Assembly (NCBI RefSeq): GCF_015521605.1
Contig: NZ_WANV01000001.1
Coordinates: forward strand, 1 to 52,373
Reading direction: 5' to 3'
DNA from: Thermococcus sp.
GTDB taxonomy: Archaea; Methanobacteriota_B; Thermococci; Thermococcales; Thermococcaceae
Length of the DNA stretch: 52,373 nt
The position numbers and the translations under genes were made by a program. The notes below the pieces were generated by a model that made no database searches, had not been told where the DNA came from, and saw nothing but the letters and a program-made list of their open reading frames with translations. Of this stretch, positions 9,744 to 45,240 are shown one piece after another. Every line of letters starts with the position of its first letter. The stretch's first letter is position 1.

Positions 9744-10019
9744 TTGGGGCACACGCTCTACTACCGAACCAGGATTGATAGGTGGGATGGGTTCAAGGGG
9801 CTCCTGGAAACGGTTTGTGAGGGACTTGGCTTCCGTGTTGTTGGGGGAGAGGACTCCGTAACGGTCTTCCCCGAATGCCACGGTGTTGAGCCCCTGGAGA
9901 TAATGAAGAACGGAGAGGGCTTCGTCAAGACGAACTTAATTGAACCCTGCCATTCCATCTATCTGCTGATTCTTCACTCGGTTGCATTTTTCGGCTCCGT
10001 CGAACTCTGGGAGGATTGA
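9744..10019 (+). CDS. Conserved hypothetical protein, 91 residues (TTG start)
   Basis: Starts MGHTLYYRTRIDRWDGF. TTG is the only possible start near the promoter, since no other in-frame start codon lies upstream; GGTGAT sits 3 bases before it. The sequence is mostly soluble with one Cys-containing C-terminal half (FPECHGVEPLE, EPCHSIYLL). I recognise it only as the sort of small protein seen in Thermococcales; no function is known to me. It is convergent with the DUF2101 gene and overlaps its 3' end by 46 bases. Confidence 0.75.
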   Translation: MGHTLYYRTRIDRWDGFKGLLETVCEGLGFRVVGGEDSVTVFPECHGVEPLEIMKNGEGFVKTNLIEPCHSIYLLILHSVAFFGSVELWED

Positions 10020-10720
10020 TCCGTGAGGTAGACCTCTATTATCCTTACCGGGACGGCTCCCCTGAGTTTTTTGTCCTCCACGATGAGCTTCACGACCCTG
10101 CCGACTTCCAGATCCTCCACGGCGTCGACCCAGTAGTGGCCGGGCTTGACATTGGCCGCTATGTCGTCGTGGACGAAGACCCTGACAACGTTGCCCTTGA
10201 TCTCCTCAACAACGCCGTAGGTGTAGTCCCTGCCGTATCTCTGCTTGAAGTACCACCGGAATGCCATGACGGCCGCAAAGGCCGCTAAGAGGTATGCGTA
10301 GTAATAGTAGATGCTCGTGGCTGTCCTCCGTACTGCGAGGTATCCCAGGAAAACGGCGAAAGAGATCAACGATATTGCGTAGTAGAAGAACCTGTACGGC
10401 TCGTGCTCGACGAAGAACTCCCGGTTCCTGACCAGGGTGTATCGTAGGTAGAGGAAGTAGACTACGGCCACTCCTCCAAGCCACAGTGGGCCTGCCCTGA
10501 TGAAGAGCAGAATTAGATTGAGAACAAGGTAGCTGAGAAAAGCCAGCTGGAGCTTGAGGCTGAGGTATTCATGGGCTGTGAATCTCTTCTTCACAAGTCT
10601 GCCGAGATACCTAAAACTTGGCGGCTCTTCTGAGGGGGAGGGGTCTATAAAATCAATGAGTTTCCTGATTCCTGAATCCACGGACTCGCCGATTCCGTAG
10701 AGGACGTCTTCCACAGACAT
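9974..10720 (-). CDS. DUF2101-type membrane protein
   Basis: 248 residues. After a soluble N-terminal 50 residues there are about four membrane segments (roughly 56-75, 80-96, 110-130 and 138-155), then a C-terminal soluble domain of about 90 residues rich in beta-strand sequence (YGVVEEIKGNVVRVFVHDDI). It resembles the Thermococcales DUF2101 family; function unknown. Last gene of the long minus-strand operon, 4 bases after the DUF2341 protein. Its 3' end overlaps the convergent gene at 9744. Confidence 0.8.
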   Translation of the reverse strand: MSVEDVLYGIGESVDSGIRKLIDFIDPSPSEEPPSFRYLGRLVKKRFTAHEYLSLKLQLAFLSYLVLNLILLFIRAGPLWLGGVAVVYFLYLRYTLVRNREFFVEHEPYRFFYYAISLISFAVFLGYLAVRRTATSIYYYYAYLLAAFAAVMAFRWYFKQRYGRDYTYGVVEEIKGNVVRVFVHDDIAANVKPGHYWVDAVEDLEVGRVVKLIVEDKKLRGAVPVRIIEVYLTDQSSQSSTEPKNATE

Positions 10721-10724
10721 GATT

Positions 10725-13700
10725 TCACCTCTTCAGCAGGTCTTCTGCTCCGGTTGGCCCCAGGACGGCCGCTGCCGTTTGGTTGTCAAGGAAGAACGGC
10801 ACAACACTTAAGTCGCCTGTGAGGGCGCTCGTACCGTAGGATATACCCCAAACGCGGTATGCGGGCATCTTTTCTATCCTGCCAAAATAGTAGTTGAGGA
10901 AGTAGTAGTCCACGCTGCTCTGTCCTTCCTCTATTGTTATTCCGAAGTTGTTAAACAGGTCGAAGAGCTTGCGGTCATAGTCGGCGTTGGGCACCATAAA
11001 GCTGACGAGCCCGATGGGGTAGTACTCGCCTCCGTATTTCATTCCCAGCTCGTCCTGCATCTCCTTTGCCAGCTGGAAGTATTTAGCGTGGTTGGTCACG
11101 CTGTTTTCAAGGCGTTCGAAGAACGATACTCCCTCGTATGTTCCGAAGTACTTCTGCTCGATTATGCATGATATCAGGGGCTGGAGGTCATAGGCGCGGG
11201 CGTTGTATGCACTGCTTGTTTGGGGTGCCGATTCAACGGTGGTGGAGCTTATGGAGTCGGTTGTGTAGTAGGGCATTCTGCCGATGACTATCCAGTCAAA
11301 GTACGCGGCGTTGACGAGGATGCCCTGGGACTGGCTGTCTATCACAATGCCCACCTTCGTTGCTGACACGGGCTCTTTGTTTATGCTGACGGTAGAGCTC
11401 CTCAGGGGGTTGTCGACGTCTGTGAACTCAAGATACACTCCGCCGGAAACGGGCGTAAATACAACCTGATACCTGTGGTAGTCGGACAGGGTTGTGGGGT
11501 TGCCTGAGGCAAGGCTGTTGCCCCAGTTCTCCAGTATTGCAAGGGTGTCCCCATTGTGGTCGCTGAACCCCGCGTTGTCGTCGATGAACTGCACACTCTC
11601 GCTCTCCGTTGTGGTCTGGGTTCCCCCTCCGCCCTGAGTTATGGTGTAGCTCAGGTACTCGTCCTCCAGGTACTTGCGGATGAATACCCAGTCGTACTCA
11701 CTGGGGCCTCCGTTCCACTGTTCCAGGCCTACGGCACGGTTGCTGCTGGCTCCGGCGTTGTACGAGCTCCTCAGAACTTTGTTGGTCCAGTCTGAGAACT
11801 GGTATATGTCAGTCCAGAATGACGTTACCCTTAGTTCTATGTTCTGGAATGAGTTTAGGGTGTACTCCGTCGTACTGGAGTCATACCACCCGATCCAGTT
11901 GCTTGTAAGGACGTTGAACCACCACAGGTATCCCCTTCCATCGCCGTAGTAGTTGATGTCCTCAATCCGACCCCACCCGGTGCTCCTGCGGATGTTCCAC
12001 ATTATTCCAGGGTTGTCAACGAGCTTCCCTCTGATGTCCATTATGTATGTGCTCGGGAAGGTTGCCTTTGTCCATATCCAGCTCCTGCTCGGAAGCTGGA
12101 GGTAGCCGTTATTTATGGAGGGGTTTCCGTGGGTGTCCCATTTCCCTGTATCCAGGGTTGTACCCGTGAAGTCATCGAAGAACTCAAAGACCTGGTTTCC
12201 GTCTCCCCTGGTGAGTGTGCCCGTGTTGTATTTGATGTAAACTGTGGCGTTGTAGTGGTACACCCATCCGTTGCTCCAGGTTCTTCCGGTGTACGTGAGG
12301 TTTGTCTTTACCCACACCTGGGCGCTGGTCGTGTCCCAGTATTCTATCCAGAAGGGTATCTGGTTCTGGAGGAGCGGATCAGAGTATACGAGTATCTCCG
12401 CCCTGTTCGTTGCGGGATCTGAGTTTATGCCGCTGATGTTTGTGGCGCTGAGTCTTATTGGCACCTGGACGTTCGTGGTGTCCGTCAGTTCTGGCCCATC
12501 GTAGTTTATGACGATCTTGAGGTAGTCTCCCAGGGCCTGGGTTTCCGTGTAGTTGAACTCCGTCTCGATTCCTCCATCGAAGTCCAGAGCGGTGCTGTTC
12601 GGCCTCATCCTGAACCTCACGAAGAACTCGCCGTCTATTGAGTTGACTGTCTGGAGGGCGAGTTTCTCAGTCCCGCCAGGAACGACCAGATGGCCGTTCC
12701 CATCAAGGTACGCGTCTGCGAGGTTGTTCCACAGGACGGGATTTATCGACGTGCCGTCGAAGGTGTCAATGAGCCAGAACAGGTATTCCTTGTTATACCC
12801 GTCGGTGGCATAGGACGGGTTGTCCGTAAAGTAAATCGAGTAGTCGGTACCGCTGGCCTTTATCCATATCCAGACGTAGGAGGTTCCCCAGTATTCTATC
12901 CAGAAGGGCACAGGGGTGCACGTGATGGTGGACTTTTCATAGATCATCATTGAGGCAGTTCCGTCGGTGTGGTATATACCCGGGAATATCGAGGTCGGTA
13001 TCTTTAGGAGCACAAGGCTTCCATCGGCGTAGCTGGGTATCGTGATGTTGACCCTCCACTTGTAGTTGGACCCGCACCAGTGACTGGTTGCACTCACATT
13101 GCCGAACACGAGCACTCCAACGTCATCGTCGTTGAATACCTCAAGCGGAGAGATCGGGACACCGTTTATCGTGGTATTGACTATTATCGGGGCGGTGACG
13201 CCGGCTATGTCCCCGCTGCGGAGTACGTATCCATCTGCCCCGTCGCCGGGATACGAGTTGCCGTAGAATATGTGTCCAGTGTCCCAGGCTGTGGAGGAAT
13301 ATTTGCCGAGTACATGGTCGCTCGTGCTGGTGCCGTTCCCGTAGAGCGTTTTAACGGGCCTGTCCATGAGTTCGGGGAAAGTGTACTCACAGGGTTCAAT
13401 TGAGCGGTAGTATCTACCGTAGGTGAGTGCCGAGAATATGGGGTCTTCAAGGTTTTCGATTGATATTATTGAGTAAACATAGTTCTCCCTCGGTATGGGG
13501 CCGGTATAGACTACCTTACCAGAGACGTCTGAAATCGTCACGTCCTTTATTCTGGCGCGTATGACGATTCTGAATGCATCCAGAGGGGCAACGGTTAGCT
13601 CTATGTTGCTCCTGAGAAAACTGCTCTTCTGGGACACGCTCATGGCCTCGATTTCGGCAATGCTCCTGTTTGCTATCCTGAGATCATACCCCTGTTTCCT

Positions 13701-14102
13701 GAGTTCGGTGGACATGTTGCCTAGCCAGCCTAGAACCGTTTGATCTTTCATAAGCCGCTCGGAGTAGTTGCTCGCGACCTGTGGAGACCGGCCAAACAGA
13801 ACTAGGTCACGTATCGTGGCGTTTGCCATACCGTTTGGGTCGTTTGGATCCAAAAAGTCCCGGGTGTTTGCGATGTAATCCACAACGGTGACTATCGCCC
13901 TCTTTCCGGATATCTCAAGGGTTCTCTGGAAGTCCATCTCAACGTACGATACCACCCTGTACGTTCTCTCAACCTGGGTCCTCTCGCTCTGACTCATTAT
14001 TATCTGGGATGAAACGTCCTCATACGTGGCCAAAAGGAGCATGAGGGGTATCAGAAGGAGTATGACAGTTGAGTTCATTAGGAATGCCCGCCGTTTCCTC
14101 AT
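10725..14102 (-). CDS. Giant surface protein with two DUF2341-LamG-like modules
   Basis: 1125 residues. A basic N-terminus (MRKRRAFLMNS) leads into one hydrophobic segment (about 8-25), so the protein is membrane-anchored with an outside body. Two related units are seen: DUF2341-like at about 345-440 and 540-640, each with the marker PFWIEYW, and each followed by a jelly-roll (LamG-like) stretch that begins DTFDGTS or DDFTGTT. The last 120 residues form a different domain (YFGTYEGVSFFERLEN). Many Asn-X-Ser/Thr sites suggest glycosylation. An adhesin or tip role is inferred. Its ATG overlaps the upstream stop by 4 bases. Confidence 0.85.
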   Translation of the reverse strand: MRKRRAFLMNSTVILLLIPLMLLLATYEDVSSQIIMSQSERTQVERTYRVVSYVEMDFQRTLEISGKRAIVTVVDYIANTRDFLDPNDPNGMANATIRDLVLFGRSPQVASNYSERLMKDQTVLGWLGNMSTELRKQGYDLRIANRSIAEIEAMSVSQKSSFLRSNIELTVAPLDAFRIVIRARIKDVTISDVSGKVVYTGPIPRENYVYSIISIENLEDPIFSALTYGRYYRSIEPCEYTFPELMDRPVKTLYGNGTSTSDHVLGKYSSTAWDTGHIFYGNSYPGDGADGYVLRSGDIAGVTAPIIVNTTINGVPISPLEVFNDDDVGVLVFGNVSATSHWCGSNYKWRVNITIPSYADGSLVLLKIPTSIFPGIYHTDGTASMMIYEKSTITCTPVPFWIEYWGTSYVWIWIKASGTDYSIYFTDNPSYATDGYNKEYLFWLIDTFDGTSINPVLWNNLADAYLDGNGHLVVPGGTEKLALQTVNSIDGEFFVRFRMRPNSTALDFDGGIETEFNYTETQALGDYLKIVINYDGPELTDTTNVQVPIRLSATNISGINSDPATNRAEILVYSDPLLQNQIPFWIEYWDTTSAQVWVKTNLTYTGRTWSNGWVYHYNATVYIKYNTGTLTRGDGNQVFEFFDDFTGTTLDTGKWDTHGNPSINNGYLQLPSRSWIWTKATFPSTYIMDIRGKLVDNPGIMWNIRRSTGWGRIEDINYYGDGRGYLWWFNVLTSNWIGWYDSSTTEYTLNSFQNIELRVTSFWTDIYQFSDWTNKVLRSSYNAGASSNRAVGLEQWNGGPSEYDWVFIRKYLEDEYLSYTITQGGGGTQTTTESESVQFIDDNAGFSDHNGDTLAILENWGNSLASGNPTTLSDYHRYQVVFTPVSGGVYLEFTDVDNPLRSSTVSINKEPVSATKVGIVIDSQSQGILVNAAYFDWIVIGRMPYYTTDSISSTTVESAPQTSSAYNARAYDLQPLISCIIEQKYFGTYEGVSFFERLENSVTNHAKYFQLAKEMQDELGMKYGGEYYPIGLVSFMVPNADYDRKLFDLFNNFGITIEEGQSSVDYYFLNYYFGRIEKMPAYRVWGISYGTSALTGDLSVVPFFLDNQTAAAVLGPTGAEDLLKR

Positions 14103-16207
14103 CCATTCTCCCTCCAGACTCTGAGTGTTATTGTTATGGGCTGGAACAGGCCGGGTATGTTGCCCATGGATACGAAGACGATGTTTACCGTTGGCGGCAG
14201 CTGCACCAGTATTGGGTTCTCCTGGGTCCCATCGCCACCGAGGTTGCGGAATAGCCTTATTATTGCATCATCAACGGCGTATCTGTCCATTCCATCGAGG
14301 AGATCCTGGGCGGTAACGTCACAGTAGGGGGCGTCTCCCGCGGTCACGTAGTGGGGGAACGTGTCTCCACTCCAGTAGTACGTTATGTTGTAGCCGGAGC
14401 ACCCTGGCCTCAGAAGTTCGGGGAACACGTCTCCATAACCTGCAAAGCCCTGAATAACGTACGTGAGCTCACCATCTCCGTTGCTCGGCTGGAGGTAGTA
14501 CCCCTGACCAAGGTCGATGTTTATAGTATTGGTTCCGGGCGCTATCGCGTTGGGAAGCGGATTGTACTGGTAGTCAAAGGTGTTTCTGGTGTAACCAACC
14601 CTGGCGAGCGCATAGATGAAGGGGTTTGGCGGGTGCTGGTATATGTAGGTGGGGTCTATCAAGGGGTTGTCAACGCGGATTGACTGTGAGGGTTCCCCGT
14701 AGTTAACGTAGTACAGCCACGGGAACTGGAACTTGACCCACAGGGGAGTCACACCCTGGGGAACGTTGAAGTTTATAGTCACCGAGCGCGTCCAATCCTG
14801 GTTGGGGAGGGTTATTGGCTCAGTTACGTCTATTGTGTACGAGGTAAGAAGAACGCCGGGGGTGTAGTCGGCATAAACGAATGATTCGTTTCCTATAAGA
14901 TGGATGTTTGGACTGTACCGGGTGTTCTCATTCCCGGCCCTCACGATTAGTGTCGTGTACCTGCTGGATATGTGGGTGTAGTTGTACCCCGCGCTGGCCA
15001 GGGCGTTTGCTATCGTCGCGTTGTCCCAGTAGCACACCTTCACCTGGGTGGTGGAGTTGTACTGACAGGGGGCGCTGAGCGGCACGGAAACCTCGTTGTT
15101 GAACATAAAGGAGAGGGTAACCGGAGTGGTGGGGGATACGTTCCCAACGGCCACCTGGACGCTGAGGGAGTTTATCTCGCCCGGAACGAAGAGGTACTTC
15201 CACGCGGTTATCCCATACTTGGCGGTGACGTCCTCGAAGTAAAATCTGTCGGTAAATCTAAGTGTGGATGGTATGGACGTGCGGTATCTAATCCTTATGT
15301 ACTGGGCACCGTCCTCACCGCCGTCGTATCCGGGCTTGTAGACCCTAACTTCAAACACGTTAGTTTCTCCGGGATGGAAGTTCTCTATGAGGGCGTATCC
15401 ACCGCTGGGGTCTGTATCCTGGATCAGCCGGTTGTTGTTAACGTATCCGGACCAGATGAGCTGGCCGTTTAGATATATCTCGTAGTTGGAGCCCACCCAG
15501 GCAGGTTCTAAGAACCACGTTATCTCCTCCACCTGTGCATCCGGCGGAATGGCGTCCGCGGGGACTATGTACCTGATTATGACCTCGTCGTTTTGATTGT
15601 CCGTCCGGGAGTATATGTATCCGCCCCTTATGGTGTACGTGTTCTCTTTGCTCCCGAGCTTATTGAGGAATGCCCTCGCCATGTAGCCCCTCGGTGTCTG
15701 GTTGTAGGCGTATCCGCTCAGTATCAGCGTTGCCGGCGTCACGTCCCTGGCTGCCGAGTAGTTGGAGCCAACCTTCCGGAGGTACGGGCTGGTGTAGTTG
15801 TTTATCATCAGCTCGTAGTTGTAGTCCTTTAGAGTGTTGTTGAGTACATACCCGAGGATTATCTCGGCTTTGTGCTTCAGGTTCGCAGAGGGGAAGAGCG
15901 GCGCCGTCGCCCAGTAAGTGGCGACTATATCTATGGGGGACATGTCGGGGGTCACGAGGGTTGTGTTGATAACTGGATCCGGGCCGGTCATCCATTCCTC
16001 CAGGGTCTCGGGGGGCACCAGTTCCCTTAGGGGAAGGGTTCTGAACATTGTCAGCGCGTCGTCGGCGACATATTTCGACTGGGAGCGCATGTACGTGGAA
16101 TAAACCTGAGCACTGGGGTTGATCTGGGTTATGCTGACCACGAACATGGTGACTAGGAGGAGGGCGAGTATGGCATCCAGGGTGAATATGAAGCCTCGCC
16201 TCTTCAT
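14099..16207 (-). CDS. Large pilin-like surface protein (702 residues)
   Basis: N-terminus MKRRGFIFTLDAILALLLVTMF: two basic residues and Gly followed at once by a hydrophobic helix with an acidic residue, as in class III/type IV pilin-like precursors. The rest is an extracellular beta-rich region with many Asn-X-Ser/Thr sites (for example NNTLKDYNYELMINNYTSPY). It includes a galactose-binding-like stretch near residues 230-310 (TWFLEPAWVGSNYEIYLNGQ). Pilins are usually 100-200 residues, so this is far larger. Coupled to both neighbours by 4-base overlaps. Function beyond surface display is unknown. Confidence 0.85.
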   Translation of the reverse strand: MKRRGFIFTLDAILALLLVTMFVVSITQINPSAQVYSTYMRSQSKYVADDALTMFRTLPLRELVPPETLEEWMTGPDPVINTTLVTPDMSPIDIVATYWATAPLFPSANLKHKAEIILGYVLNNTLKDYNYELMINNYTSPYLRKVGSNYSAARDVTPATLILSGYAYNQTPRGYMARAFLNKLGSKENTYTIRGGYIYSRTDNQNDEVIIRYIVPADAIPPDAQVEEITWFLEPAWVGSNYEIYLNGQLIWSGYVNNNRLIQDTDPSGGYALIENFHPGETNVFEVRVYKPGYDGGEDGAQYIRIRYRTSIPSTLRFTDRFYFEDVTAKYGITAWKYLFVPGEINSLSVQVAVGNVSPTTPVTLSFMFNNEVSVPLSAPCQYNSTTQVKVCYWDNATIANALASAGYNYTHISSRYTTLIVRAGNENTRYSPNIHLIGNESFVYADYTPGVLLTSYTIDVTEPITLPNQDWTRSVTINFNVPQGVTPLWVKFQFPWLYYVNYGEPSQSIRVDNPLIDPTYIYQHPPNPFIYALARVGYTRNTFDYQYNPLPNAIAPGTNTINIDLGQGYYLQPSNGDGELTYVIQGFAGYGDVFPELLRPGCSGYNITYYWSGDTFPHYVTAGDAPYCDVTAQDLLDGMDRYAVDDAIIRLFRNLGGDGTQENPILVQLPPTVNIVFVSMGNIPGLFQPITITLRVWRENG

Positions 16208-17691
16208 GAGTCATCCCACACCCACAGTTTTAGCACCGCTAGGCTCGCCTGGGGTCTCATGATGGTATCAATCCCGTTAAGATCCGTTATTTCGACCATT
16301 GTTATGTCCTTCATCTCGTAGACCCAAACGTAGATGTCGAGACTCTCTCCCGGCCTTATCTGGGTAAGGAACTCCTTCCATGGGATTATTATGTAGTAGG
16401 GGTTCTCTGAGGAGTAGGATTTGACGTAGGAGTTTCCGTTGATCGTCTGGTTTATGATGGCCTTGACGTTTGAATCTGCGGAGGTCTTGTACACGGCCAT
16501 GACGGAGTACCCGGAGATGTTGGTTCCCCTCATCCACGCCACGGCAACGACGTGGCCGGTGCCGTTGAACGCAACTTTAAGCGCCATGTAGTCTGGGATT
16601 GGGGTGTATATCGTCCCGACGTAGAGCTCGGTGGGGAGTGAGTCGGCGGTGACCGTGTAGCTCCTGTTGTAGGTCATCTTTGTCATGGGGATTCTCCTCT
16701 CGGTGTAGGTCACCCACGGTGAGCGCTCCCGGGAGGCGATTATCGTTGCGGGATCGTTAACGAAGCTGCCGTTTATCATGGTTATGTTGTAGTCAGCGCT
16801 CACAACCTTGGTTGCGTAGACGTACTTAATCGTCATGTTGGTCGAGGAGACTGTTCCTCCCTGCCCCCACCACACGGTTCCCGTCCAAGTGGTCCATATC
16901 TGCTGTCCCAGACGGTGCAGGGGAATCCAGAGCTCGTAGGTGCCGTCGGCGAGTTTGTTCCATCCTATGAGGAGGTATCCGGTCTCAACGTCTATATGGA
17001 CGATTGAGCCGGCGGGTATGTTGTAGTTCACCGGCCCTCCCTGGTTTCCGGGGCCGATGAGGTCGAGCCTGACGCTTCCGTCCTCCGCGAGCTTGAAGAC
17101 GAAGCTTTCCCCTGCGGTTACATTTGTCACGTTTGCTATGTTCCCCACACCGGGGGCATCGCTTCTCTCGGGGCTTATCCACTCGGCGATGAGTCCCCTT
17201 CCGTATGCGTATCCAGTGGTAGGAGTGACGGAGAGATGGCCTCCGGAGGGGATGTCCACAGAGCCCTCTGTCTGGGGGGGTATGACCGTCACGTTTCCCT
17301 CAATCTCGACCCTTGTGAGGTAAAATCCCAGGGTGAAGTCCTTCCCCATGCTGATGTTTGCCAGCGCCGCCCTCACGGCTGGATCGTTAGCGGCAACGGC
17401 ATCATTAAGGGCCTCTATCTTCGCATAGTCTATGGTGTTTGGATACTGGCTGTTCTCAAGACCCAGAAAGGCCAGATTGGCTGGATCTGTCTGCCAGTTG
17501 TCCGGAGTTCCGGGGTTCTTGACGAGTATGTCCAGCATGTTGTCTCCAACATTGGCCCTCTCGTACCATCCGAGCACGGTTGTTATCTCGCCCTTCAGGG
17601 CACTTGATGTTGTGGTGATAGTGCCGAGTAGCAGGATTATTATGACCATCGACAGCATCGCATCGAACGAGAGCAGCTGGCCCCTCCTCAT
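16204..17691 (-). CDS. Pilin-like surface protein (495 residues)
   Basis: N-terminus MRRGQLLSFDAMLSMVIIILLLG resembles class III signal peptides (basic residues, Gly-Gln, then an acidic residue within a hydrophobic helix). The remainder is predicted outside the cell, beta-rich, with Asn-X-Thr sites such as NVTNVTAG and NRSYTVT. ATGA overlaps on both sides show translational coupling. No enzymatic motif was seen. Likely a minor or specialised subunit of the structure the operon builds. Confidence 0.85.
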   Translation of the reverse strand: MRRGQLLSFDAMLSMVIIILLLGTITTTSSALKGEITTVLGWYERANVGDNMLDILVKNPGTPDNWQTDPANLAFLGLENSQYPNTIDYAKIEALNDAVAANDPAVRAALANISMGKDFTLGFYLTRVEIEGNVTVIPPQTEGSVDIPSGGHLSVTPTTGYAYGRGLIAEWISPERSDAPGVGNIANVTNVTAGESFVFKLAEDGSVRLDLIGPGNQGGPVNYNIPAGSIVHIDVETGYLLIGWNKLADGTYELWIPLHRLGQQIWTTWTGTVWWGQGGTVSSTNMTIKYVYATKVVSADYNITMINGSFVNDPATIIASRERSPWVTYTERRIPMTKMTYNRSYTVTADSLPTELYVGTIYTPIPDYMALKVAFNGTGHVVAVAWMRGTNISGYSVMAVYKTSADSNVKAIINQTINGNSYVKSYSSENPYYIIIPWKEFLTQIRPGESLDIYVWVYEMKDITMVEITDLNGIDTIMRPQASLAVLKLWVWDDS

Positions 17692-18161
17692 ACTCTCACC
17701 ACATCCACGTTTATTTCAATCTCTCTCCCGCCTAGGTAGAGCTTTCCATTCTGCTTAACCACGTTGGTCTTGGATATCAGGTCGTCCTCAATGTACTGCT
17801 TTATATTTGCCTCAACGGTACTTTCGGAGAGTCCCGCCCCCGCGTAGGTTATCGTGATGTTGATCTGAATCGTGCCGTTGATTTCCGCGGTGCGCACCCC
17901 AGCGAGCTGAAACGCCCTATATGTGTAATTGCTGGCGTTTATTATCGCGTTTAGGGGGGTGTAGATGCTCTCGTTGATCATGACTCCGGTGTTCAGATAG
18001 GCGCAGGCATCTGAGGCGGAGCCTCTAACGTACGATATTATTGAAGCGGCCGTGTTCTCGTTCAGATATGGGGGGACTATCAGAACGATCCCTGCGAGAA
18101 TAATGGCGGTTATGAAGAGAACCTCTATGGCCGTCTGTGCCTTACGGCGAGAGGGTGACAT
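17688..18161 (-). CDS. Class III signal peptide pilin-like protein (157 residues)
   Basis: Starts MSPSRRKAQTAIEVLFITAII: the QTAIE core matches the archaeal class III signal peptide pattern (Q-x-x-x-E followed by a hydrophobic helix) cleaved by EppA-type prepilin peptidases. The ATG at 18161 is chosen over 18182 because GGAGGGGAGG precedes it by about 4 bases. It overlaps the 3' end of the previous gene by 20 bases and the next start by 4. About 120 residues outside the membrane, including ANIKQYIEDDLISK. Confidence 0.85.
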   Translation of the reverse strand: MSPSRRKAQTAIEVLFITAIILAGIVLIVPPYLNENTAASIISYVRGSASDACAYLNTGVMINESIYTPLNAIINASNYTYRAFQLAGVRTAEINGTIQINITITYAGAGLSESTVEANIKQYIEDDLISKTNVVKQNGKLYLGGREIEINVDVVRV

Positions 18162-18582
18162 CCAGCCTCCCCTCCGTTTCATTGTACGTCGCCACTATGC
18201 TGAAATCCCTATCCGCCCCAGTAAGGGTCACCGAGGTGTTCTCGTATATCGGCACCGGGCTCCTCTGGGCCACGCGGTAGCCCTTTCCCCCTATCGTGGC
18301 GTTAACAACGACACTATCCGGGGCGAGTAGGCTGACTGTTACCTTGTCTCCCGCATCCAGGTTTATCGGGAGTTCCTTTCTCACGGTAAACCCGTCCCCG
18401 GCAGTGTAAACCTTGACAACGGAGTCCCGGACATCGATGGAGAACGCCTTCAGCTTCGCGATGGTGTCAAAGGTTTCGGAGTGGGCCCTCTCGCTGTCGG
18501 CAATGTAGACTAGGTTGAGCATCGTGATGGTTATGAGGGTCACTGCAAAGAGGAAGTCAAGGCTTATCTGTCCCCGCTTCAT
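18142..18582 (-). CDS. Class III signal peptide pilin-like protein (146 residues)
   Basis: Starts MKRGQISLDFLFAVTLITITM: K-R-G-Q-I-S-L-D-F fits the class III motif with Asp in place of the usual Glu. A small extracellular beta domain follows (VRKELPINLDAGDKVTVSL). It lies 2 bases after the preceding pilin gene. Confidence 0.85.
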   Translation of the reverse strand: MKRGQISLDFLFAVTLITITMLNLVYIADSERAHSETFDTIAKLKAFSIDVRDSVVKVYTAGDGFTVRKELPINLDAGDKVTVSLLAPDSVVVNATIGGKGYRVAQRSPVPIYENTSVTLTGADRDFSIVATYNETEGRLDVTLSP

Positions 18583-18584
18583 CT

Positions 18585-19217
18585 TCAGCCACCGGGGTTT
18601 ATGTTTATGTGAAGCTCACCGGCAGTTGAATCGAAGGTCCATGAGTTGGGGTTGTCCGGGTTCCACTCCACGACTATCTCAAGGGTTCCGGGAAGATCGG
18701 TGGGGTCGATCTCAATGCCGTAAACTGTGGTCGCGTTGAACGTGGTACTCCCAGCTGGAGACCACACGGAGGAGTTGGTGTAGAGGACGGCCTGGTACAT
18801 AGCACGGCTCCAGAACACGTTTTTATTCCCGCCACTGAGAACAGCGGTGACGTTGGTTCCGGTAACGGTGACGTACGTCCCGTTGCCTTCGGTGCTGTAG
18901 TTCCCGTAGGTTATGAAAACCTTGGGGCTGTTCACACCCAGACCTTTGAGAAGCATATCGGGGTCTCTCAGATACGTGATTCTTACATAGGTTGTTGACT
19001 TCGCTCCGGGGCCCTGGGCGTAGACCTGGGATATGGTGTTCGATATCGCGTTGGCTAGGTTCTTCTCTTCAAGGCTTATCTGGATGCGCAGGGTCTCGGT
19101 TGAGGTGGAGCCCTCCTTGAAGGTTATGTTGTTTACCGAGTACACCAGGAGGATGAGCATCATTCCGAAGATTAACATGAACTCAAGTGAAACCTGACCA
19201 CGCTTTTTTACCACCAT
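18585..19217 (-). CDS. Class III signal peptide pilin-like protein (210 residues)
   Basis: Starts MVVKKRGQVSLEFMLIFGMM, the most canonical class III signal (GQVSLEF) of the set. ATG at 19217 with GGGGAGA upstream. It may be the major subunit, since it has its own TATA-like element in the 38-bp gap upstream. The outside region has Asn-X-Ser/Thr sites. Confidence 0.88.
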   Translation of the reverse strand: MVVKKRGQVSLEFMLIFGMMLILLVYSVNNITFKEGSTSTETLRIQISLEEKNLANAISNTISQVYAQGPGAKSTTYVRITYLRDPDMLLKGLGVNSPKVFITYGNYSTEGNGTYVTVTGTNVTAVLSGGNKNVFWSRAMYQAVLYTNSSVWSPAGSTTFNATTVYGIEIDPTDLPGTLEIVVEWNPDNPNSWTFDSTAGELHININPGG

Positions 19218-19250
19218 ATTTCTCCCCTCAGTATGGTATATCTCTGAACA

Positions 19251-19260
19251 TCTATTTAAT
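19251..19260 (-). promoter_or_regulatory. Possible internal promoter before the pilin genes
   Basis: ATTAAATAGA on the minus strand, 34-43 bases before the ATG at 19217, within the operon's only sizeable internal gap. It could raise pilin expression relative to the upstream CetZ part. It overlaps the final codons of the upstream gene. Confidence 0.4.
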
Positions 19261-19885
19261 CGTTACTCTCGGGCTTTTCGGCGTTTACGACGGCGAAAAG
19301 ACCCGTTCCGACCTTTATAGTCCTGACACCAAAGTAATCGCCGCTGAATATTTTGAACTTATACCTCTCCGGCTGAAGGGAGTGCTTTTCAATGAGTCCT
19401 TTCAGTTCATCAATAAAGAACTGTGTTAGCTCGTAGTAAATTAAATCAAGCTTTTCCCGGGTGGAATCCCTGATCAGAAGAACCACGGGGAGTATCGCGA
19501 GCCCAAGTATGATATAAGGCTGACCCAGGATCGCCGTCGCGGCTGCGGTGGCGGCAATAAGCGCACCTATTGCGGCATAGCTCATCTTCTCCCTCTTCTT
19601 CGCTTCCTTGATTTCCTTGACCTTCTGTTCCCAGATGTCCAGCAGGGAGGGATTGTAAAAGTCAAATGCAGTATGGCGCTTTCCCTTCGCTATCCTCTCC
19701 CTGATGAGGTCATCCCAGTCGTCCTTGTAGTATATTACCTCACCGTGGAGCTTTGCCCTCTCCGCATCGAGGGAGGAGATTATCCTGATTATGTCCTCTG
19801 CGCTCTCGTGGGCGATGTGGGCGTAAACCTCCTTCTCGTCAAGTTCCAGGGCAACCTCTACCGAGTCCCGGATGGGTTCAGTCAT
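19256..19885 (-). CDS. Membrane hairpin protein next to CetZ (209 residues)
   Basis: An N-terminal soluble, charged helical region of about 105 residues, then two close membrane segments (about 107-145: YAAIGALIAATAAATAILG and IILGLAILPVVLLI), then about 65 cytoplasmic residues. Both ends would be inside the cell. No known domain recognised. It overlaps the end of the CetZ-like gene by 8 bases. A role as a membrane anchor or partner for the GTPase is an inference from this coupling. Confidence 0.8.
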   Translation of the reverse strand: MTEPIRDSVEVALELDEKEVYAHIAHESAEDIIRIISSLDAERAKLHGEVIYYKDDWDDLIRERIAKGKRHTAFDFYNPSLLDIWEQKVKEIKEAKKREKMSYAAIGALIAATAAATAILGQPYIILGLAILPVVLLIRDSTREKLDLIYYELTQFFIDELKGLIEKHSLQPERYKFKIFSGDYFGVRTIKVGTGLFAVVNAEKPESND

Positions 19886-21050
19886 CCTTCCCCCTCCTGA
19901 GCTTTTTGCTTATCCCATCTATGTCCGGATACTCGCCGTCGGGGAATATCTCCTTGAGCTCACTTCCTCCCCTGGCGTACACGTCATCGAAGTCGGGCAG
20001 ACCGCTCAGGAGCTCCTTCTTTTTGGTCTCAGCTTCCTCCTTTGCCTCCATGAATGACTGGGCGTACCGCTTTGCGGTGATGATTATATCCTCTATGCTC
20101 CTGCTCTCATAGATGCCGCTGAGGAGCGTAACGACCTCGACCTCCCTCTCGCGCGGGTCGGGATAGAACCCCCTGAATATCTGCTTGCCCCGTATCTTGT
20201 TGGTGAGATAGTCGAGCGCCTCGAAAATCTCCGCAGCCTTCAGGGTCTCGGGCGGGCCGTGGATCGCGACCAGTCCGTAGAGGGCCGACTCAATGTTCGC
20301 CTCAAGGTAGAGCCCCTCGCTCTCAAAGGACTTGACGATGAGCCTGGAGAGGCTTTTGACTTTGTTTGCCTCGGCCTTCGCGTATCCGACCGTTGCAAAG
20401 CTCCCAAAGGCCTTTAAGACAAATTTCAAATCGCTCGCATCGAGGGTCTGTTCGCCGGGAACATCCACCAGCGCCAGAAGGGAGGCTATTCTCTCGACTA
20501 TCGTATAATTTATCCTTTCGTAGGCACGCGTTATGTCGTCGCCGCCCTCTTTGAGCTTGTTGTTGTCTATGGCTATTATGGAATCGGCGATCTTGGAGAG
20601 CTTGTCGATGGTTATGGCGGCGTTTATGGTGGGCCGTATGCCCTCCTCTCTGAGTGGAAGTGCGCCGATGGCAACCACCAGGGAGTCTGGGTACTCCTCT
20701 TTGAGCGCTTCCGCCAAGACGGGCGTTCCTCCGGCACCGGTCCCTCCTCCGAAGCCGAAGGTCAGGAAGAATATATCGACGTCCTCGTAGCCTATTATGG
20801 AACCTATCTTGCGCATAACCAAAGGCAGGTCGCGTTTCATGGCTTCTCTGCCGAGTATCGGGTTCGCGTTGACGCCCTTGCCGCCGGTGAGGCTCTCCCC
20901 TATGAGTATCCTCCGCTCCGGGGGGACGTGCTTGAGGTAGTCCAAGTCTCCCTTTGATGTGTTTATGGCCAGAGCCTCAAAATCAACCAGAGCGAAGAGG
21001 TCGGCTATTTTCGTTCCGCACTGGCCGACCCCTATGATTAGAGCCCTCAC
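19878..21050 (-). CDS. CetZ-like tubulin/FtsZ superfamily GTPase
   Basis: 390 residues. The nucleotide-binding start is IIGVGQCGTKIADLF (the GQCG of tubulin/CetZ rather than the GGAG of FtsZ). The tubulin signature FGFGGGTGAGG is at about residues 98-108, and a T7-like acidic loop LDASDLKF retains Asp. The C-terminal tail is short and charged. CetZ proteins in haloarchaea control cell shape and motility structures; Thermococcales members are not well characterised. GTG start at 21050 with GGGGTGA 7 bases upstream. It is the second gene of an operon otherwise made of surface proteins, so a role in placing or assembling the surface structure is inferred. Confidence 0.88.
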   Translation of the reverse strand: MRALIIGVGQCGTKIADLFALVDFEALAINTSKGDLDYLKHVPPERRILIGESLTGGKGVNANPILGREAMKRDLPLVMRKIGSIIGYEDVDIFFLTFGFGGGTGAGGTPVLAEALKEEYPDSLVVAIGALPLREEGIRPTINAAITIDKLSKIADSIIAIDNNKLKEGGDDITRAYERINYTIVERIASLLALVDVPGEQTLDASDLKFVLKAFGSFATVGYAKAEANKVKSLSRLIVKSFESEGLYLEANIESALYGLVAIHGPPETLKAAEIFEALDYLTNKIRGKQIFRGFYPDPREREVEVVTLLSGIYESRSIEDIIITAKRYAQSFMEAKEEAETKKKELLSGLPDFDDVYARGGSELKEIFPDGEYPDIDGISKKLRRGKDD

Positions 21051-21057
21051 CTCTTAA

Positions 21058-23277
21058 TCACCCCACCACTATTACCCTCACCTTTCCGTTCTCGCTGAGG
21101 AGAATCATCGCATCGCCTCTCAGGTATCTTATGAATCCGGTGGTGAAGACTTCTTTGGCAATTTCTGCATTCTCTGGCTCGTAAAGTACGAAGAGAACGA
21201 CTCCCTTAGGGGTCTTGCCCGGAACGAGGACTACGGCTTTGCCGGTGGGCACGGTGATGTTTCCGACGGTGACGGTTCCGTCATCCACGTAGAACTTCAG
21301 ATACGGGTTGTATGGTCTGATGGGGTAGTCTCCGAAGTTCGCCATTACTATGTAGCTGTTTTCGCCAATCACGGTTGTGTTGAGCGGGATAAAGCCGCCG
21401 CTGAAGAGGTCGTTGAGGGTCGTTATCATCGCTCCGATGCTCTCGTTGTCCATGCCGGGCGCGATTATTCCGAACACATCGCTGTCAAGGGCGCTCCTTA
21501 CGTCGTAAAGGCTTACGGGGGGAACATACTGGAAGCGTGAGAGGTAGTTTATCGCACTAGCGACTTCTATCGTCCTGTTGTCTATGGCGCCGGAGTCCCT
21601 GGCGTTCATGACGAAATCCAGGGTCTCGCTGGTGTAGTTGTAACCGTAACCGATGAGGAGGTCGGTCGCCCTGACTGTGAGTTCAACGGTCGGGGTTCCC
21701 GGGAACTCCCTGTTCTTTTCCCAGACGTAGTACGTCTTCCAGTAGGGCCAGCCGCCATCGAGTCTCTGGTCGATGAGCCACTCGATGTGGGGTTTGAGCT
21801 CTTCAGGGGTGGCTATTCCGTCCAAGGCCTCCAGGACGGTTATGGTCGTCAGCACGTCCGGTTTGAGCATGTAGGAGTAGTACTTGGTGGTTACGTACGT
21901 CCCCCATCCGCCGTTGCTTATGCTCAGGAGCCACTCCTTCGCCCTCTGGATGAGGGAATCGTTTGCGGAAACCCCGAGCTCACGGAGGGCTTTGATCGCC
22001 AGGGCGGTCTCGTAGGGCTGCGGTCCAAGCACCGTGTTGCCCCAGAGGCCGTAGTCGAGCTGGACACTCCGTATAAGTTCCTCCGCCTGGGCTCTCTCCT
22101 CCGCCGTTAGGTTGTTGTACATGAGAAGCGTTTTGAGGGCGTAGTAGTATCCGACGGACATCCTGCGGTTCTTTTCCATCCAGGCGGCATCGTTTTTGAA
22201 GGCCTCCCTCGTCCATGCGAGGGCTCTCTCTATACTCTCCCTCTCCGGGTAGCACGCCTGAATGGAGGCCAGGGCGTAATAGGTGGCCTTCTCATCGGAG
22301 GGCTCGTTGAGTCCGAGGCCCCATCCGCCGTCCGGGTTCTGCATGTTCTTGAGCTCCTGACACGGCATCTCGTAGGGGTTCTTGACCTCCTTTGCCGGTG
22401 GCAGCTCAAAGGTGGTCGAAAGGGCCATGAGGGCGTAGGAGGTTGTGGCTATTAGTTCCGTTGATGAGAACAGGTCGGGGGTATTCATCCAGTACACGAG
22501 GTCGTTTGAGCTCTTGCCGTATGATTCGAGTTTGATCAGTATCCTCGCGGTATCAAAATCCACAGGGGTGTATAAGACGAGAGCGTACGCGAGCATGGCA
22601 CGCTCTTTCATCTTCAGGCCGTTGTCGTTGAGGAGGAGGTCTTTTACGGTCTCCAACGTCTCGTTGGATACAGGGTAGCCTATGCTGTGGTAGGCTATGA
22701 GCCTGAGGGCGAGCGCCTCGTACTCGGAAATCTCACAGGTGGCGTTCTCCACGTACTCAACCGCGTTTCTGACGGCCCTGCTGTTGTAGCTGTATCCGTT
22801 CTCGCCCAGGGCCCAGATGGCCAGCAGCGTCGGGTAGCACGAGCTCGGCGTTCCGGGCACGTACCCCCAGCCCATTTTGTTTTCGGCCGAGAGAAGGTAT
22901 GAGAGGCCGCGGTCGATGGCGGGCCTCACGTCCAGCCTTTCCATGGTCTTGAGGTACGGGTAGGCCCTCTTGAGGGCTATAACGGCATAGGCCGTGTCGA
23001 GCACATTGCTGGTCTCTCCGGGATAAAGGCCCCATCCGCCGTCCGGGTTCTGATAGTTGAGCATGTTGTTAACGAGGGTGACTAGGTCGGGGGTTATGTC
23101 CCAGTTCAGGTCGTTGGCCCCCACCGAGAGGGCCATTATGGCCAGACTTATCTCCCTCGTCTGTTGGGTGGATTTGGCGGCATCTTTGAGAAACCTTGCG
23201 GAGCCGTCTATCGCTCCGGCACTAACGGCTGGAATCAGCATGAAAACAATCATTACTAGAGCCAGAACCTTCTTCAT
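21058..23277 (-). CDS. Secreted alpha/alpha-toroid (prenyltransferase-repeat) protein
   Basis: 739 residues with a Sec signal peptide (MKKVLALVMIVFMLIPAVSAG). Repeats of the squalene-cyclase/prenyltransferase/A-macroglobulin toroid type are clear: QNPDGGWG near residues 76 and 312, GWGY, NGGWG and LDGGWPYW. The DxDD acid motif of squalene-hopene cyclase is absent, so terpene cyclisation is unlikely; a binding or structural role outside the cell fits better. The last 130 residues form a beta domain (ENSYIVMANFGDYPIRPY). ATG at 23277 preceded by GGGGTG; an in-frame GTG at 23280 is possible. First gene of the CetZ operon. Confidence 0.87.
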   Translation of the reverse strand: MKKVLALVMIVFMLIPAVSAGAIDGSARFLKDAAKSTQQTREISLAIMALSVGANDLNWDITPDLVTLVNNMLNYQNPDGGWGLYPGETSNVLDTAYAVIALKRAYPYLKTMERLDVRPAIDRGLSYLLSAENKMGWGYVPGTPSSCYPTLLAIWALGENGYSYNSRAVRNAVEYVENATCEISEYEALALRLIAYHSIGYPVSNETLETVKDLLLNDNGLKMKERAMLAYALVLYTPVDFDTARILIKLESYGKSSNDLVYWMNTPDLFSSTELIATTSYALMALSTTFELPPAKEVKNPYEMPCQELKNMQNPDGGWGLGLNEPSDEKATYYALASIQACYPERESIERALAWTREAFKNDAAWMEKNRRMSVGYYYALKTLLMYNNLTAEERAQAEELIRSVQLDYGLWGNTVLGPQPYETALAIKALRELGVSANDSLIQRAKEWLLSISNGGWGTYVTTKYYSYMLKPDVLTTITVLEALDGIATPEELKPHIEWLIDQRLDGGWPYWKTYYVWEKNREFPGTPTVELTVRATDLLIGYGYNYTSETLDFVMNARDSGAIDNRTIEVASAINYLSRFQYVPPVSLYDVRSALDSDVFGIIAPGMDNESIGAMITTLNDLFSGGFIPLNTTVIGENSYIVMANFGDYPIRPYNPYLKFYVDDGTVTVGNITVPTGKAVVLVPGKTPKGVVLFVLYEPENAEIAKEVFTTGFIRYLRGDAMILLSENGKVRVIVVG

Positions 23278-23310
23278 CACCTTACACCCCTAAGCTCATT
23301 CTAAGCGGCC

Positions 23311-23323
23311 AGAATAAATAAAC
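23311..23323 (-). promoter_or_regulatory. TATA box of the CetZ/pilin operon
   Basis: GTTTATTTATTCT on the minus strand, about 35-45 bases before the first ATG at 23277, with the only strong promoter-like signal upstream of the ten-gene series. Confidence 0.6.
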
Positions 23324-23325
23324 TT

Positions 23326-23340
23326 TTTCCATAATGGAAA
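23326..23340. promoter_or_regulatory. Perfect palindrome upstream of the CetZ operon promoter
   Basis: TTTCCAT-A-ATGGAAA, a perfect 15-bp dyad that ends 3 bases before the TATA element, where BRE would lie. Position suggests an activator site or a block to TFB binding. It could also serve as a 3' element for the gene end at 23351. Confidence 0.5.
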
Positions 23341-29246: not shown

Positions 29247-30269
29247 TCAGCTGGCCTCATCCCCTTCCGGGGGCAGTGGCTTCCGGTACTCGTATGATAT
29301 CCCGTCGTCTATTATGGCGAAGACCTCGTCCTCACCGTCTATGTAGTGGAGTATTGGCTTGTCCACAAGCTCGAAGGTCGTCTCCAAATCCCTGGGGGTC
29401 TTCAGGACGACCCTCCTCTGGACAGGCCCGGGTGCGCCTTTGACTATATACGGCCTTATCTTGGCCAGCTCATCCTTCGGAGGCCTTGAGGTGTAAACGT
29501 AGCCCACGATGGGTATCAGCATCAGAAATGCCAGCAGTGTGGTAACTACCTTTGCCGTATCGAGGTCGCTGGTTACTCCCAGGACACTAGCGCTGACTTC
29601 TTCCCTGGTCGTCGTTGTCAGGGTTTTTCTTGAGATCTTCTTTGCCTCGGTGAAGTAGTAGAGCCCTGCCCCGCTGTCCCTGATGAGTTCAACTTCGTGG
29701 TCAAAGCTCTCGTTTATCTTCTTTCCATTTACTTCGCCTGTTCCAGAGACTTTTGTAGTTATGATTATCCTTCTGTTAAGCCTCTTAATCCCGAGTTCCT
29801 TGGATACTTCTGAGCTCATATCATCGAGTTTCTCCATGTCGAGTGTGTACTCCGCCGTGAATCCGCCTTCTTGGAGCTTGCCCTTTTTGTCAAAGAGTGT
29901 GTCCTCCCACATAATGACCTCTTCACTGCCTTTGTTAACGTAGTACACGATCTTTCCTGTTACCTCGTACGTGCCGGTGCTGAGCGGTGGGTTTGAATGG
30001 TATGTGTACGTCAGCAGGAACCTGTCAACGAGGGATATGGGGTATTCGTCCCTAAAGACCATGTACCCGTAAATCTCGTTGGACTTGAGATAAGCTGCAT
30101 GCTTCAGCTGTCCCTCTTCCTTAAACGTTCCAAGGGTCTGGGTGTTCACTACGTATGGGCTTGCGCTCATGAGCTTCACGGAATAAAATCCGAACACTAG
30201 GAAGAGCACCAGGAATACTCCCAGGACTTCCTTTCTCCTCATAAACCTAATCAACTTTTCCTTCTTCAT
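29247..30269 (-). CDS. DUF5305-type membrane protein
   Basis: 340 residues: an N-terminal membrane segment (about 16-33), a large extracellular beta-rich domain, a second membrane segment near 245-262 (VVTTLLAFLMLIPIVGYVYTS), and a cytoplasmic tail of about 80 residues. This layout and the motif set (YTYHSNPPLSTGTYEV) fit DUF5305, a family I associate with signal peptidase/TasA-like operons in archaea. Last gene of the operon, with a 4-base overlap to the gene before. Confidence 0.82.
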   Translation of the reverse strand: MKKEKLIRFMRRKEVLGVFLVLFLVFGFYSVKLMSASPYVVNTQTLGTFKEEGQLKHAAYLKSNEIYGYMVFRDEYPISLVDRFLLTYTYHSNPPLSTGTYEVTGKIVYYVNKGSEEVIMWEDTLFDKKGKLQEGGFTAEYTLDMEKLDDMSSEVSKELGIKRLNRRIIITTKVSGTGEVNGKKINESFDHEVELIRDSGAGLYYFTEAKKISRKTLTTTTREEVSASVLGVTSDLDTAKVVTTLLAFLMLIPIVGYVYTSRPPKDELAKIRPYIVKGAPGPVQRRVVLKTPRDLETTFELVDKPILHYIDGEDEVFAIIDDGISYEYRKPLPPEGDEAS

Positions 30270-31315
30270 CCTTCACATTCTCCTGTGCCGTTTTCATGAT
30301 TGGAACCGTGGTCGTGGTTACATTCGCATTCATCATTCTCTTGGCAGCATCCATCGTGGTTATCGCAGCAATCCACGCTCACCACGAGTGCGTTGCTGGT
30401 TATACCGTACTGGACTATGGTCGCCCCTTCGTTCAGGTTGTACTCGCCGCACGAGGTAAACTCCTGCTGCCCTCCGGGGTTCAGCCGGGTGAACACTGTA
30501 ATGTTCATGTGGACGCTCCCCCCCGCTGGAACGGTCACGTTCCACTCCATCTTCGTGGCCGGCTGGGCGTCATTTCCGCCATGTCCCCCTCCACAGTGCC
30601 CTCCGCACTGGTTGCCGTCGTTCGCTGCCCAGAACCTGTACGTGCCGGCACTTGCGCTGGTTCCACCCAGGCTCACGTTGAACTCCGCAGGGATGGTGTC
30701 GGTTATAGTCATGGTGAGGTCATCGTCGGTTGGGTTTGTCACCAGTATCTGGAAGACCCATTCCTGGTACGTTTTCAGGGGTATTCCGCTGGTGTTGCCG
30801 TGGAGGAGTATCTTTTCTATGGTTGGATCGCCCGTCACGACGATTTTTATTGGGCAGGTCTCCACAACGGCGTCTCCGCCATTCCACCGGGCGTGCATTT
30901 CAATCGGGATTACGTACTCTCCCGGTGCGACATCGCTTACGTTCACGTGGCCGGTAAACGTGTACTCATCCCCCGAAGCTATCATCCGCTCGGCGCCGTC
31001 TTCGGTTTCTATGAACACCTCCGCGTTGCCCGGAAGGTCGGAGTAGTCCGGGTCGAGCGATATCCATACGTCCTTCATCTCGTTCAGGTAGTTTCTTACC
31101 GTCAGTGCATCAAAGTCAGTCTCGCTGTACGGGCTGACCTCAACAACTGCGGCATAGCCGTCTTCACAGTCAAAGCCGAGGTACTCCTTATCGTGGGGAA
31201 CAACGGCAACTTTGACTTCCCTCGATGCTTCAAAGTTTACAAAGGTTCCACTGGAGCCTACGAGAATCAGCGATGCCAGTGCGAACGTTATAATAATTGA
31301 GAACAGAGCTTTCAT
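30266..31315 (-). CDS. DUF1102/TasA-like secreted protein with Cys/His-rich tail
   Basis: 349 residues. The signal-peptide region (ALASLILVGSSG) leads to TFVNFEASREVKVAVVPHDKEY, the camelysin/TasA-like N-terminus shared with the other fibre genes. A middle region (DPTIEKILLHGN...NPTDDDLTMTITDTIPAEF) looks like an Ig-like repeat. It contains NQCGGHCGGGHGG, and the last ~35 residues (CCDNHDGCC...CECNHDHGSNHENG) are packed with Cys and His, a likely metal-binding or crosslinking tail. Coupled to the signal peptidase gene by a 4-base overlap. Confidence 0.8.
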   Translation of the reverse strand: MKALFSIIITFALASLILVGSSGTFVNFEASREVKVAVVPHDKEYLGFDCEDGYAAVVEVSPYSETDFDALTVRNYLNEMKDVWISLDPDYSDLPGNAEVFIETEDGAERMIASGDEYTFTGHVNVSDVAPGEYVIPIEMHARWNGGDAVVETCPIKIVVTGDPTIEKILLHGNTSGIPLKTYQEWVFQILVTNPTDDDLTMTITDTIPAEFNVSLGGTSASAGTYRFWAANDGNQCGGHCGGGHGGNDAQPATKMEWNVTVPAGGSVHMNITVFTRLNPGGQQEFTSCGEYNLNEGATIVQYGITSNALVVSVDCCDNHDGCCQENDECECNHDHGSNHENGTGECEG

Positions 31316-32382
31316 ATCCTAAACACCTCCGATATCCCTCTACGGAAGGAAGTTCTCCTTCTCTTGATTCTAAGAACATCCTCGTTTCCGATGCCTGAGA
31401 TTACGTAGAACGCCCCAAGGAACAGGGAAAGTTCTACCAGAATGGCGAGGAGAGGCATAACCGGGTTGATACCGTACAGGTACGTGATCACGGACTTCGG
31501 GAGCAGGGGCATGTACGCGTTTATCCTGACCTTGGCCACGTATATTGAGGTTCTTTTTGGGGCGGTTACACCCACCACTATGCTCTTCTCCTCCCCTTTA
31601 CTGAGTTCAAACTGGGTCTCGGTTATGTAATCAATATCGGGCGAACTCGCGGAGATGTAGTAGTACATCGGATAAAAGTTCTTGTTCTGGAGGGATATCT
31701 CCTGCTCAAAGCTCTCCCCGGGCAGATACCACCCTTCTCGTACACCTCCAGCGGATGTTACTGCGTATTCAATTGGGAACATCTGCCAGGATACAAAGGT
31801 CGCGGCCGAAACCATGACCAGAAGGAGAACGGCCGATAGTAGGTAGAGGGTCTTGAACTTGATACGAATGAACCGTTTTCCCCGTTTCCTTTTTTCCTTC
31901 TCCCCCCCGGTGAATGCAAAGACACCAAAAATCACCAGCAGGCCTGCTATGATCATTTTTCCTTGATCCGATAAGTTGGCATCGTTCAGGTACAGTCCCA
32001 ATTTAGGCACGGTTATGGGGTTTCCGTTTATGGCTATAACCTTGCCACCTATCTGCCCCTCTGTTATTGGGGGTGTGTTTCTGCTCTGCTGGTCGGTTGC
32101 TATGTTGTTGTCTCCTCTCGTGAGATATCCCGCCTCCACTATTCCCACTACCCTGTGAACGGTCCATGTTCCACCGGCGTTAAACACGACTATGTCCCCA
32201 ACCTGCGGATTGCGCGCAAACGGGTTTATGAAAAACACGTCTCCCTTGTCTATGGTGGGCGACATGCTGCTGGAGTACGCGTACGAGATGAAAACTGGCC
32301 TGTCCATAAGAACCCCAAGAAGTGAGCCGATGAGAATTATCCCAACGAACGCAAGAATTCCGTATTCGATTATTTTATTCAT
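31312..32382 (-). CDS. Signal peptidase I (archaeal S26B) dedicated to the TasA-like operon
   Basis: 356 residues. Catalytic Ser39 in SSMSP, His76 in TVHRVVG and Asp91 in TRGDNN: the Ser-His-Asp arrangement of archaeal/eukaryotic type signal peptidases. After about 150 residues there are extra membrane segments (about 140-160 and 175-195), an extracellular domain and a last membrane segment near 320. Longer than a housekeeping signal peptidase (about 150-200). Its place among TasA-like genes recalls the sipW-tasA arrangement of Bacillus. It probably processes the fibre proteins. Confidence 0.88.
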   Translation of the reverse strand: MNKIIEYGILAFVGIILIGSLLGVLMDRPVFISYAYSSSMSPTIDKGDVFFINPFARNPQVGDIVVFNAGGTWTVHRVVGIVEAGYLTRGDNNIATDQQSRNTPPITEGQIGGKVIAINGNPITVPKLGLYLNDANLSDQGKMIIAGLLVIFGVFAFTGGEKEKRKRGKRFIRIKFKTLYLLSAVLLLVMVSAATFVSWQMFPIEYAVTSAGGVREGWYLPGESFEQEISLQNKNFYPMYYYISASSPDIDYITETQFELSKGEEKSIVVGVTAPKRTSIYVAKVRINAYMPLLPKSVITYLYGINPVMPLLAILVELSLFLGAFYVISGIGNEDVLRIKRRRTSFRRGISEVFRI

Positions 32383-32891: not shown

Positions 32892-32921
32892 TCTTTTCCC
32901 CCTCATAATAATTTATGGAAA

Positions 32922-32935
32922 GGAGCAAATGCTCC
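32922..32935 (-). repeat. Hairpin between TasA-like genes 2 and 3
   Basis: GGAGCA and TGCTCC, a perfect 6-bp inverted repeat with a 2-base loop, in the only gap (about 60 bases) inside the operon. It could stabilise or partly terminate the upstream mRNA so that the fibre subunits are made in excess over the peptidase. Confidence 0.35.
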
Positions 32936-32953
32936 GAAATGAAACCATTCTAT

Positions 32954-34173: not shown

Positions 34174-34255
34174 GGTACATTCCTCCATGTTTTCCAAACC
34201 GACACCCTAGGCAGAGGCCATCATAGGGATGCCTCATTGAGTGTAGTGAAGTCAA

Positions 34256-45239: not shown

Positions 45240-45240
45240 G

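Follow-up and report, generated by a model that had tools for sequence, protein, structure and literature searches.

Ten genes on one strand of a Thermococcus-like genome (2.03 Mb, 42 contigs) form an operon that joins a CetZ tubulin-family GTPase and an adjoining membrane hairpin protein to six pilin-like proteins. The operon lies in the stretch of 52,373 nucleotides that was analysed, here called the window, and coordinates refer to this window. On balance, and with some reservation, we favour an account in which it is a clade 1 pilus accessory operon with a CetZ module that would place or stabilise the base of the pilus.

The initial annotation knew of no described operon coupling a tubulin homologue to a surface structure. 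This was wrong, as one is described in Makarova et al. 2016 (PMC4858521) and in Brown & Duggin 2023 (PMC9856176), both cited here from excerpts of their text. According to the former, which cites Szabo et al. 2007, the clade 1 pilus loci include an FtsZ-family GTPase and a 'squalene cyclase' in most Thermococci; it also assigns DUF2341 as an adhesin. The latter analysed 15 Thermococcales, reports that the cetZ region of each is pilin-associated with its order conserved, and suggests that type IV systems may use CetZ as a scaffold. Since the cetZ-pilin linkage was published in these two papers, the main finding is already known. The excerpts contain no mention of the hairpin protein as an anchor, of the CetZ tail peptide or of a clear separation between the operon and the ATPase and PilC genes. 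What is added here is the location of the unlinked assembly machine, the contrast in conservation between CetZ and the pilins, the co-occurrence of the hairpin protein and the tail peptide of CetZ. The interest now rests on the candidate CetZ anchor, which bears on how archaeal tubulin-like filaments attach to the membrane and on their role outside the haloarchaea. The Thermococcales, with a single CetZ always tied to one pilus operon, offer a directly testable setting.

The ten open reading frames, A to J, occupy 9974 to 23280 on the minus strand with no intergenic gap above 38 bases, confirming the one-strand operon with short overlaps that had been read from the sequence. The secreted alpha-alpha toroid protein A (21058 to 23280), which Pfam and the PDB assign to a squalene-cyclase-like fold, is separated by 7 bases from CetZ (B, 19878 to 21050), which itself overlaps the hairpin protein (C, 19256 to 19885) by 8. 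A gap of 38 bases leads to pilin D and one of 2 bases from D to E. E and F overlap by 41 bases, or by fewer with the second ATG as the start of F, and overlaps of 4 bases at F/G, G/H and H/I are followed by a gap of 4 between I and the DUF2101 membrane protein J (PF09874, 9974 to 10720). Upstream, a TYW1-like gene lies 70 bases from the operon, and a conserved TATA-like promoter sits inside that gap. This sets the TYW1-like gene apart, so the unit is taken as about 9974 to 23331; the ten genes of the span first given (9974 to 23340) stand while its upstream limit has been moved.

The ten proteins were aligned to the loci, mostly of 20 kb, of 40 Thermococcales genomes and to 24 MAG loci, and the same gene order was found in all long loci. 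Junctions were counted in 39 Thermococcales loci. Separation of the GTPase gene from the pilin-like genes in relatives had been named as an argument against the coupling; instead, the internal junctions were intact in 37 to 39 of the 39 loci. The flanking junctions were intact in 29 of 39 on the TYW1 side and 27 of 39 on the guaA side. Since the internal junctions hold while the flanks break, the operon is a unit kept beyond local synteny, and the cetZ-pilin linkage is far beyond chance. The internal exceptions were the loss of the toroid gene in one genome (G020), a DUF2101 gene about 35 kb away in another (G008), pilin F in L091, strongly diverged yet still located as an ortholog, and a few artefacts of ORF boundaries. 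An apparent toroid-CetZ fusion in L087 was an artefact of tblastn reading through stop codons, and unusual spacings between the CetZ and hairpin genes in L071 and L097 were discarded for the same reason. DUF2101 was confined to the Thermococcales among 115 genomes of the phylum and occurred in none of 14 control genomes.

The promoter element upstream of the toroid gene is the BRE/TATA-like sequence GGAAAAAGTTTATTTATT (23310 to 23331, minus strand). The same or a very similar box occupies the same position in Thermococcus relatives, a strict pattern being matched in 25 of the 39 loci and some of the others having a weaker TATA-like sequence. No BRE/TATA-like box was found within 90 bases upstream of cetZ or of the hairpin gene in 40 loci. 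The toroid protein bears a secretion signal and gives a Pfam match of the squalene-cyclase/prenyltransferase type; a motif check found the catalytic DxDD of squalene cyclase to be missing. The complete genome G020 lacks the toroid gene altogether; there a TATA-like sequence stands directly before cetZ, and the rest of the operon is kept with the pilins still downstream of cetZ (locus L083). The natural loss of the toroid gene with the remainder retained indicates that the toroid protein is dispensable in this lineage.

The pilin-like proteins were initially counted as five; the count is six because the DUF2341 protein shares the pilin-like N-terminus. In all six (D to I, all minus strand) a hydrophobic helix comes after a basic stretch with G or A at its end, and this arrangement is conserved across genomes. 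They are the class III (type IV) pilin-like protein D (18585 to 19217, KRG/QVSLEF), the pilin-like proteins E (18142 to 18582, KRG/QISLDF) and F (17688 to 18182, RKA/QTAIEV), the large pilin-like proteins G (16204 to 17691, RRG/QLLSFDA) and H (14099 to 16207, RRG/FIFTLDA), and the DUF2341 giant I (10725 to 14102), a predicted tip adhesin. An acidic residue is found at +5 in D, E and F and at +6 in G and H, and there is none in I. The Pfam class III signal (Class_IIIsignal, PF04021) exceeded its cut-off in D only, the other five being assigned by reading and by conservation of the N-terminus in orthologs. The DUF7288 match of H was weak and below the cut-off. Protein I had been described as a DUF2341-LamG giant, of which the DUF2341 part was upheld (PF10102, 51 bits) and the LamG part dropped out as Pfam gave none. 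In its structural model, pilin D has a helix at the N-terminus and a head rich in beta structure (pLDDT 88.6); Foldseek returned no significant match for it in the PDB. Neither PHROGs nor NCBIfam put a name to the pilins or the hairpin protein.

The identification of B as a CetZ-like GTPase was borne out by its scores against PF00091 (105.8 bits) and PF21011, CetZ_C (60.4 bits; cut-off 21.6), and it falls well short of the ftsZ equivalog (121 bits; cut-off 295). The GGGTGAG signature is at residue 101, and the acidic T7-loop residues DASD (DxxD) are at 204 to 207, a position assigned by reading and not from structure. Residues 347 to 358 form the tail peptide LLSGLPDFDDVY, which conforms to the consensus LLxGLPDF[DE]DxY found in all complete CetZ orthologs (n = 63) shortly before a variable end; the extreme tail beyond it is not conserved (29%).

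The mean pairwise identity of CetZ is 86%, equal to that of the flanking TYW1 (86%) and GuaA (86 to 90%), while pilins D to G reach 33 to 49% and H and I 42%. By this measure CetZ evolves like a housekeeping protein and the pilins do not, which counts against the favoured account and fits a broader role. CetZ may thus have a general function in cell shape, the envelope or the positioning of motility structures, sharing the operon for co-regulation alone with the hairpin protein as a general anchor. Haloarchaeal CetZ1 has been implicated in shape and motility (PMC9856176, as excerpted). Such a role is possible but on the unlikely side, as the hairpin gene is never apart from cetZ in 89 genomes, nor are the pilins in the loci compared, and the gene order is kept where the flanks move. 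A literature search found no paper on CetZ function in the Thermococcales, and the placing or anchoring of a surface structure by CetZ is put forward as a hypothesis.

The presence of a membrane hairpin protein next to CetZ, as first annotated, is supported. Of 94 genomes, the same 89 carry both CetZ and the hairpin protein, every time as neighbours on one strand, and the five others, which have neither, are fragmented assemblies. The mean pairwise identity of the hairpin protein is 61% overall, rising to 82 to 86% in cytosolic residues 7 to 90 and falling to 34% in the transmembrane part. The transmembrane hairpin spans approximately residues 105 to 142, and positive charges on both sides of it suggest that both ends are cytosolic. 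The structural model has a long N-terminal helix, the membrane hairpin and a small C-terminal domain; Foldseek against the PDB gave nothing significant and no known anchor fold, a point against the favoured account. Residues 69 to 76, within the invariant stretch, have no structure in the model, which would suit a binding motif.

FtsZ binds its membrane anchors, FtsA, ZipA and SepF, via a short conserved tail peptide, and the same logic is therefore proposed for CetZ and the hairpin protein. We tentatively suggest that the hairpin protein is a new, dedicated anchor for CetZ, that its invariant cytosolic segment would bind the tail peptide LLxGLPDF[DE]DxY, and that the pair may serve as a cytoskeletal platform positioning a type IV pilus. 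The protein could instead be a component of pilus assembly, like an extra inner-membrane platform protein, having no contact with CetZ. Its gene sits between cetZ and the first pilin gene and its product has both cytosolic and membrane parts, as such a component might; this is nevertheless unlikely, given that the protein was not seen in members of the phylum outside the Thermococcales. One marginal match there (G096, E 2e-4) covered the membrane part only and was not counted.

No assembly ATPase was found within the window, in agreement with the initial annotation, which had left assembly to genes elsewhere or to a different mechanism. The genes elsewhere were found, namely an ATPase, two T2SSF/PilC proteins and a prepilin peptidase; a different mechanism is not needed and was dropped once the ATPase had been located. 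On contig C11 the gene for a DUF515 protein is followed by a PilB/KlbA-type ATPase and then by two T2SSF/PilC-type proteins. A second ATPase/T2SSF pair on contig C41 is taken to be a putative archaellum machine. The KlbA/PilB-type ATPase is present in 93 of 94 Thermococcales and lies at least 31 kb from cetZ, with a median of about 250 kb (41 genomes). In many Thermococcales an in-frame insertion of several hundred residues, of the kind an intein would give, interrupts the orthologs of the pilus ATPase (L104 7512 to 9377 and others) at residue 459; the ATPase of the window's genome has no such insertion.

On contig C10 (L119, 544 to 1938) a class III pilin of 54 residues, a candidate for the major pilin, is followed directly by a prepilin peptidase gene (PF06819, 103 bits), whose product would be a candidate processing enzyme for the prepilins of the operon. 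Profiles PF06847 and PF01478 found no prepilin peptidase, and a marginal PF01478 match was rejected as it overlapped an oxidoreductase and a channel-like ORF. Contigs C40 and C2 also encode small class III proteins. This genome content fits the published model, as given in the excerpt of PMC4858521, in which small stand-alone pilins are major and the locus pilins minor. That the operon builds a pseudopilus or tip complex rather than a long pilus, using the klbA or the archaellum machine, is improbable. In favour of this reading, several of the operon's pilin-like proteins are very large (495 to 1125 aa) and more like minor pilins, and small genes standing alone elsewhere probably encode the major pilins; against it, the clade 1 system of Methanococcus maripaludis, which is related, produces genuine pili and requires its minor pilins to do so (PMC4858521, as excerpted).

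To return to the favoured account, the most likely role of CetZ is to scaffold or position a clade 1 type IV pilus while tethered to the membrane, and the hairpin protein would be its anchor. The operon would supply a CetZ cytoskeleton module and the accessory half, minor pilins and tip, of the Thermococcales clade 1 type IV pilus. Its six prepilin-like proteins would be processed by the prepilin peptidase encoded elsewhere and assembled by the distant KlbA/PilB-type ATPase and the two PilC platform proteins, the DUF2341 protein being at the pilus tip. CetZ would polymerise at the cytoplasmic face, its conserved C-terminal peptide would tether it to the hairpin protein, and the tethered CetZ would place or stabilise the pilus base at a defined membrane site. 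We infer that the operon's pilins and the distant machine make one pilus; polymerisation of CetZ in the Thermococcales, its binding by the hairpin protein and an outcome in positioning rather than shape are presumed. In favour of the account are the operon structure, the protein families, an order kept where the flanks break, a single conserved promoter-like box, the presence of the machine genes, the shared occurrence of CetZ and the hairpin protein, the conserved cytosolic segment of the latter and the conserved CetZ tail peptide. The link of the surface assembly to the S-layer, which had been offered as an option, found no support.

Two other clusters were observed in the window. A surface-protein cluster at 29247 to 34197 (minus strand) resembles filament clusters of the SipW/TasA type; it encodes a DUF5305 protein, a signal-peptidase-like protein that carries an Ig-like extension, and three DUF1102 proteins. 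At 44574 to 47754 (plus strand), four adjacent membrane proteins of similar size, which look like a duplicated family, precede a small protein whose sequence suggests a DNA-binding regulator.

Among known systems, FtsZ with FtsA, ZipA and SepF shares with CetZ the combination of a tubulin-family GTPase and a short conserved tail peptide; in CetZ this peptide is GLPDF[DE]D, and the hairpin protein is the candidate anchor. The remaining comparisons draw on the excerpts of the two papers. The Thermococcales cetZ-pilin regions of PMC9856176 are the same locus, with the sole CetZ, five to six predicted pilins and two envelope proteins; that paper has pilBC regulons next to cetZ in the Thermococci, whereas the ATPase and PilC genes found here are at least 31 kb away. 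With the clade 1 archaeal type IV pili of PMC4858521 the system shares a DUF2341 adhesin, at least five minor pilins, two TadC/PilC proteins, one ATPase, the GTPase and the 'squalene cyclase', while the GTPase is not described for the methanococcal and methanobacterial clade 1 systems in that excerpt. The CetZ proteins of the Archaeoglobales and methanogens show no pilus linkage according to the excerpt of PMC9856176, which counts against the favoured account. In its favour, the Halobacteria have a separate linkage of CetZ2 to a pilus: their cetZ2-pilB2/C2 regulon (PMC9856176) puts a CetZ gene beside a type IV pilus cluster, but this is of another pilus clade and, unlike the Thermococcales operon, holds its ATPase and platform gene inside the cluster.
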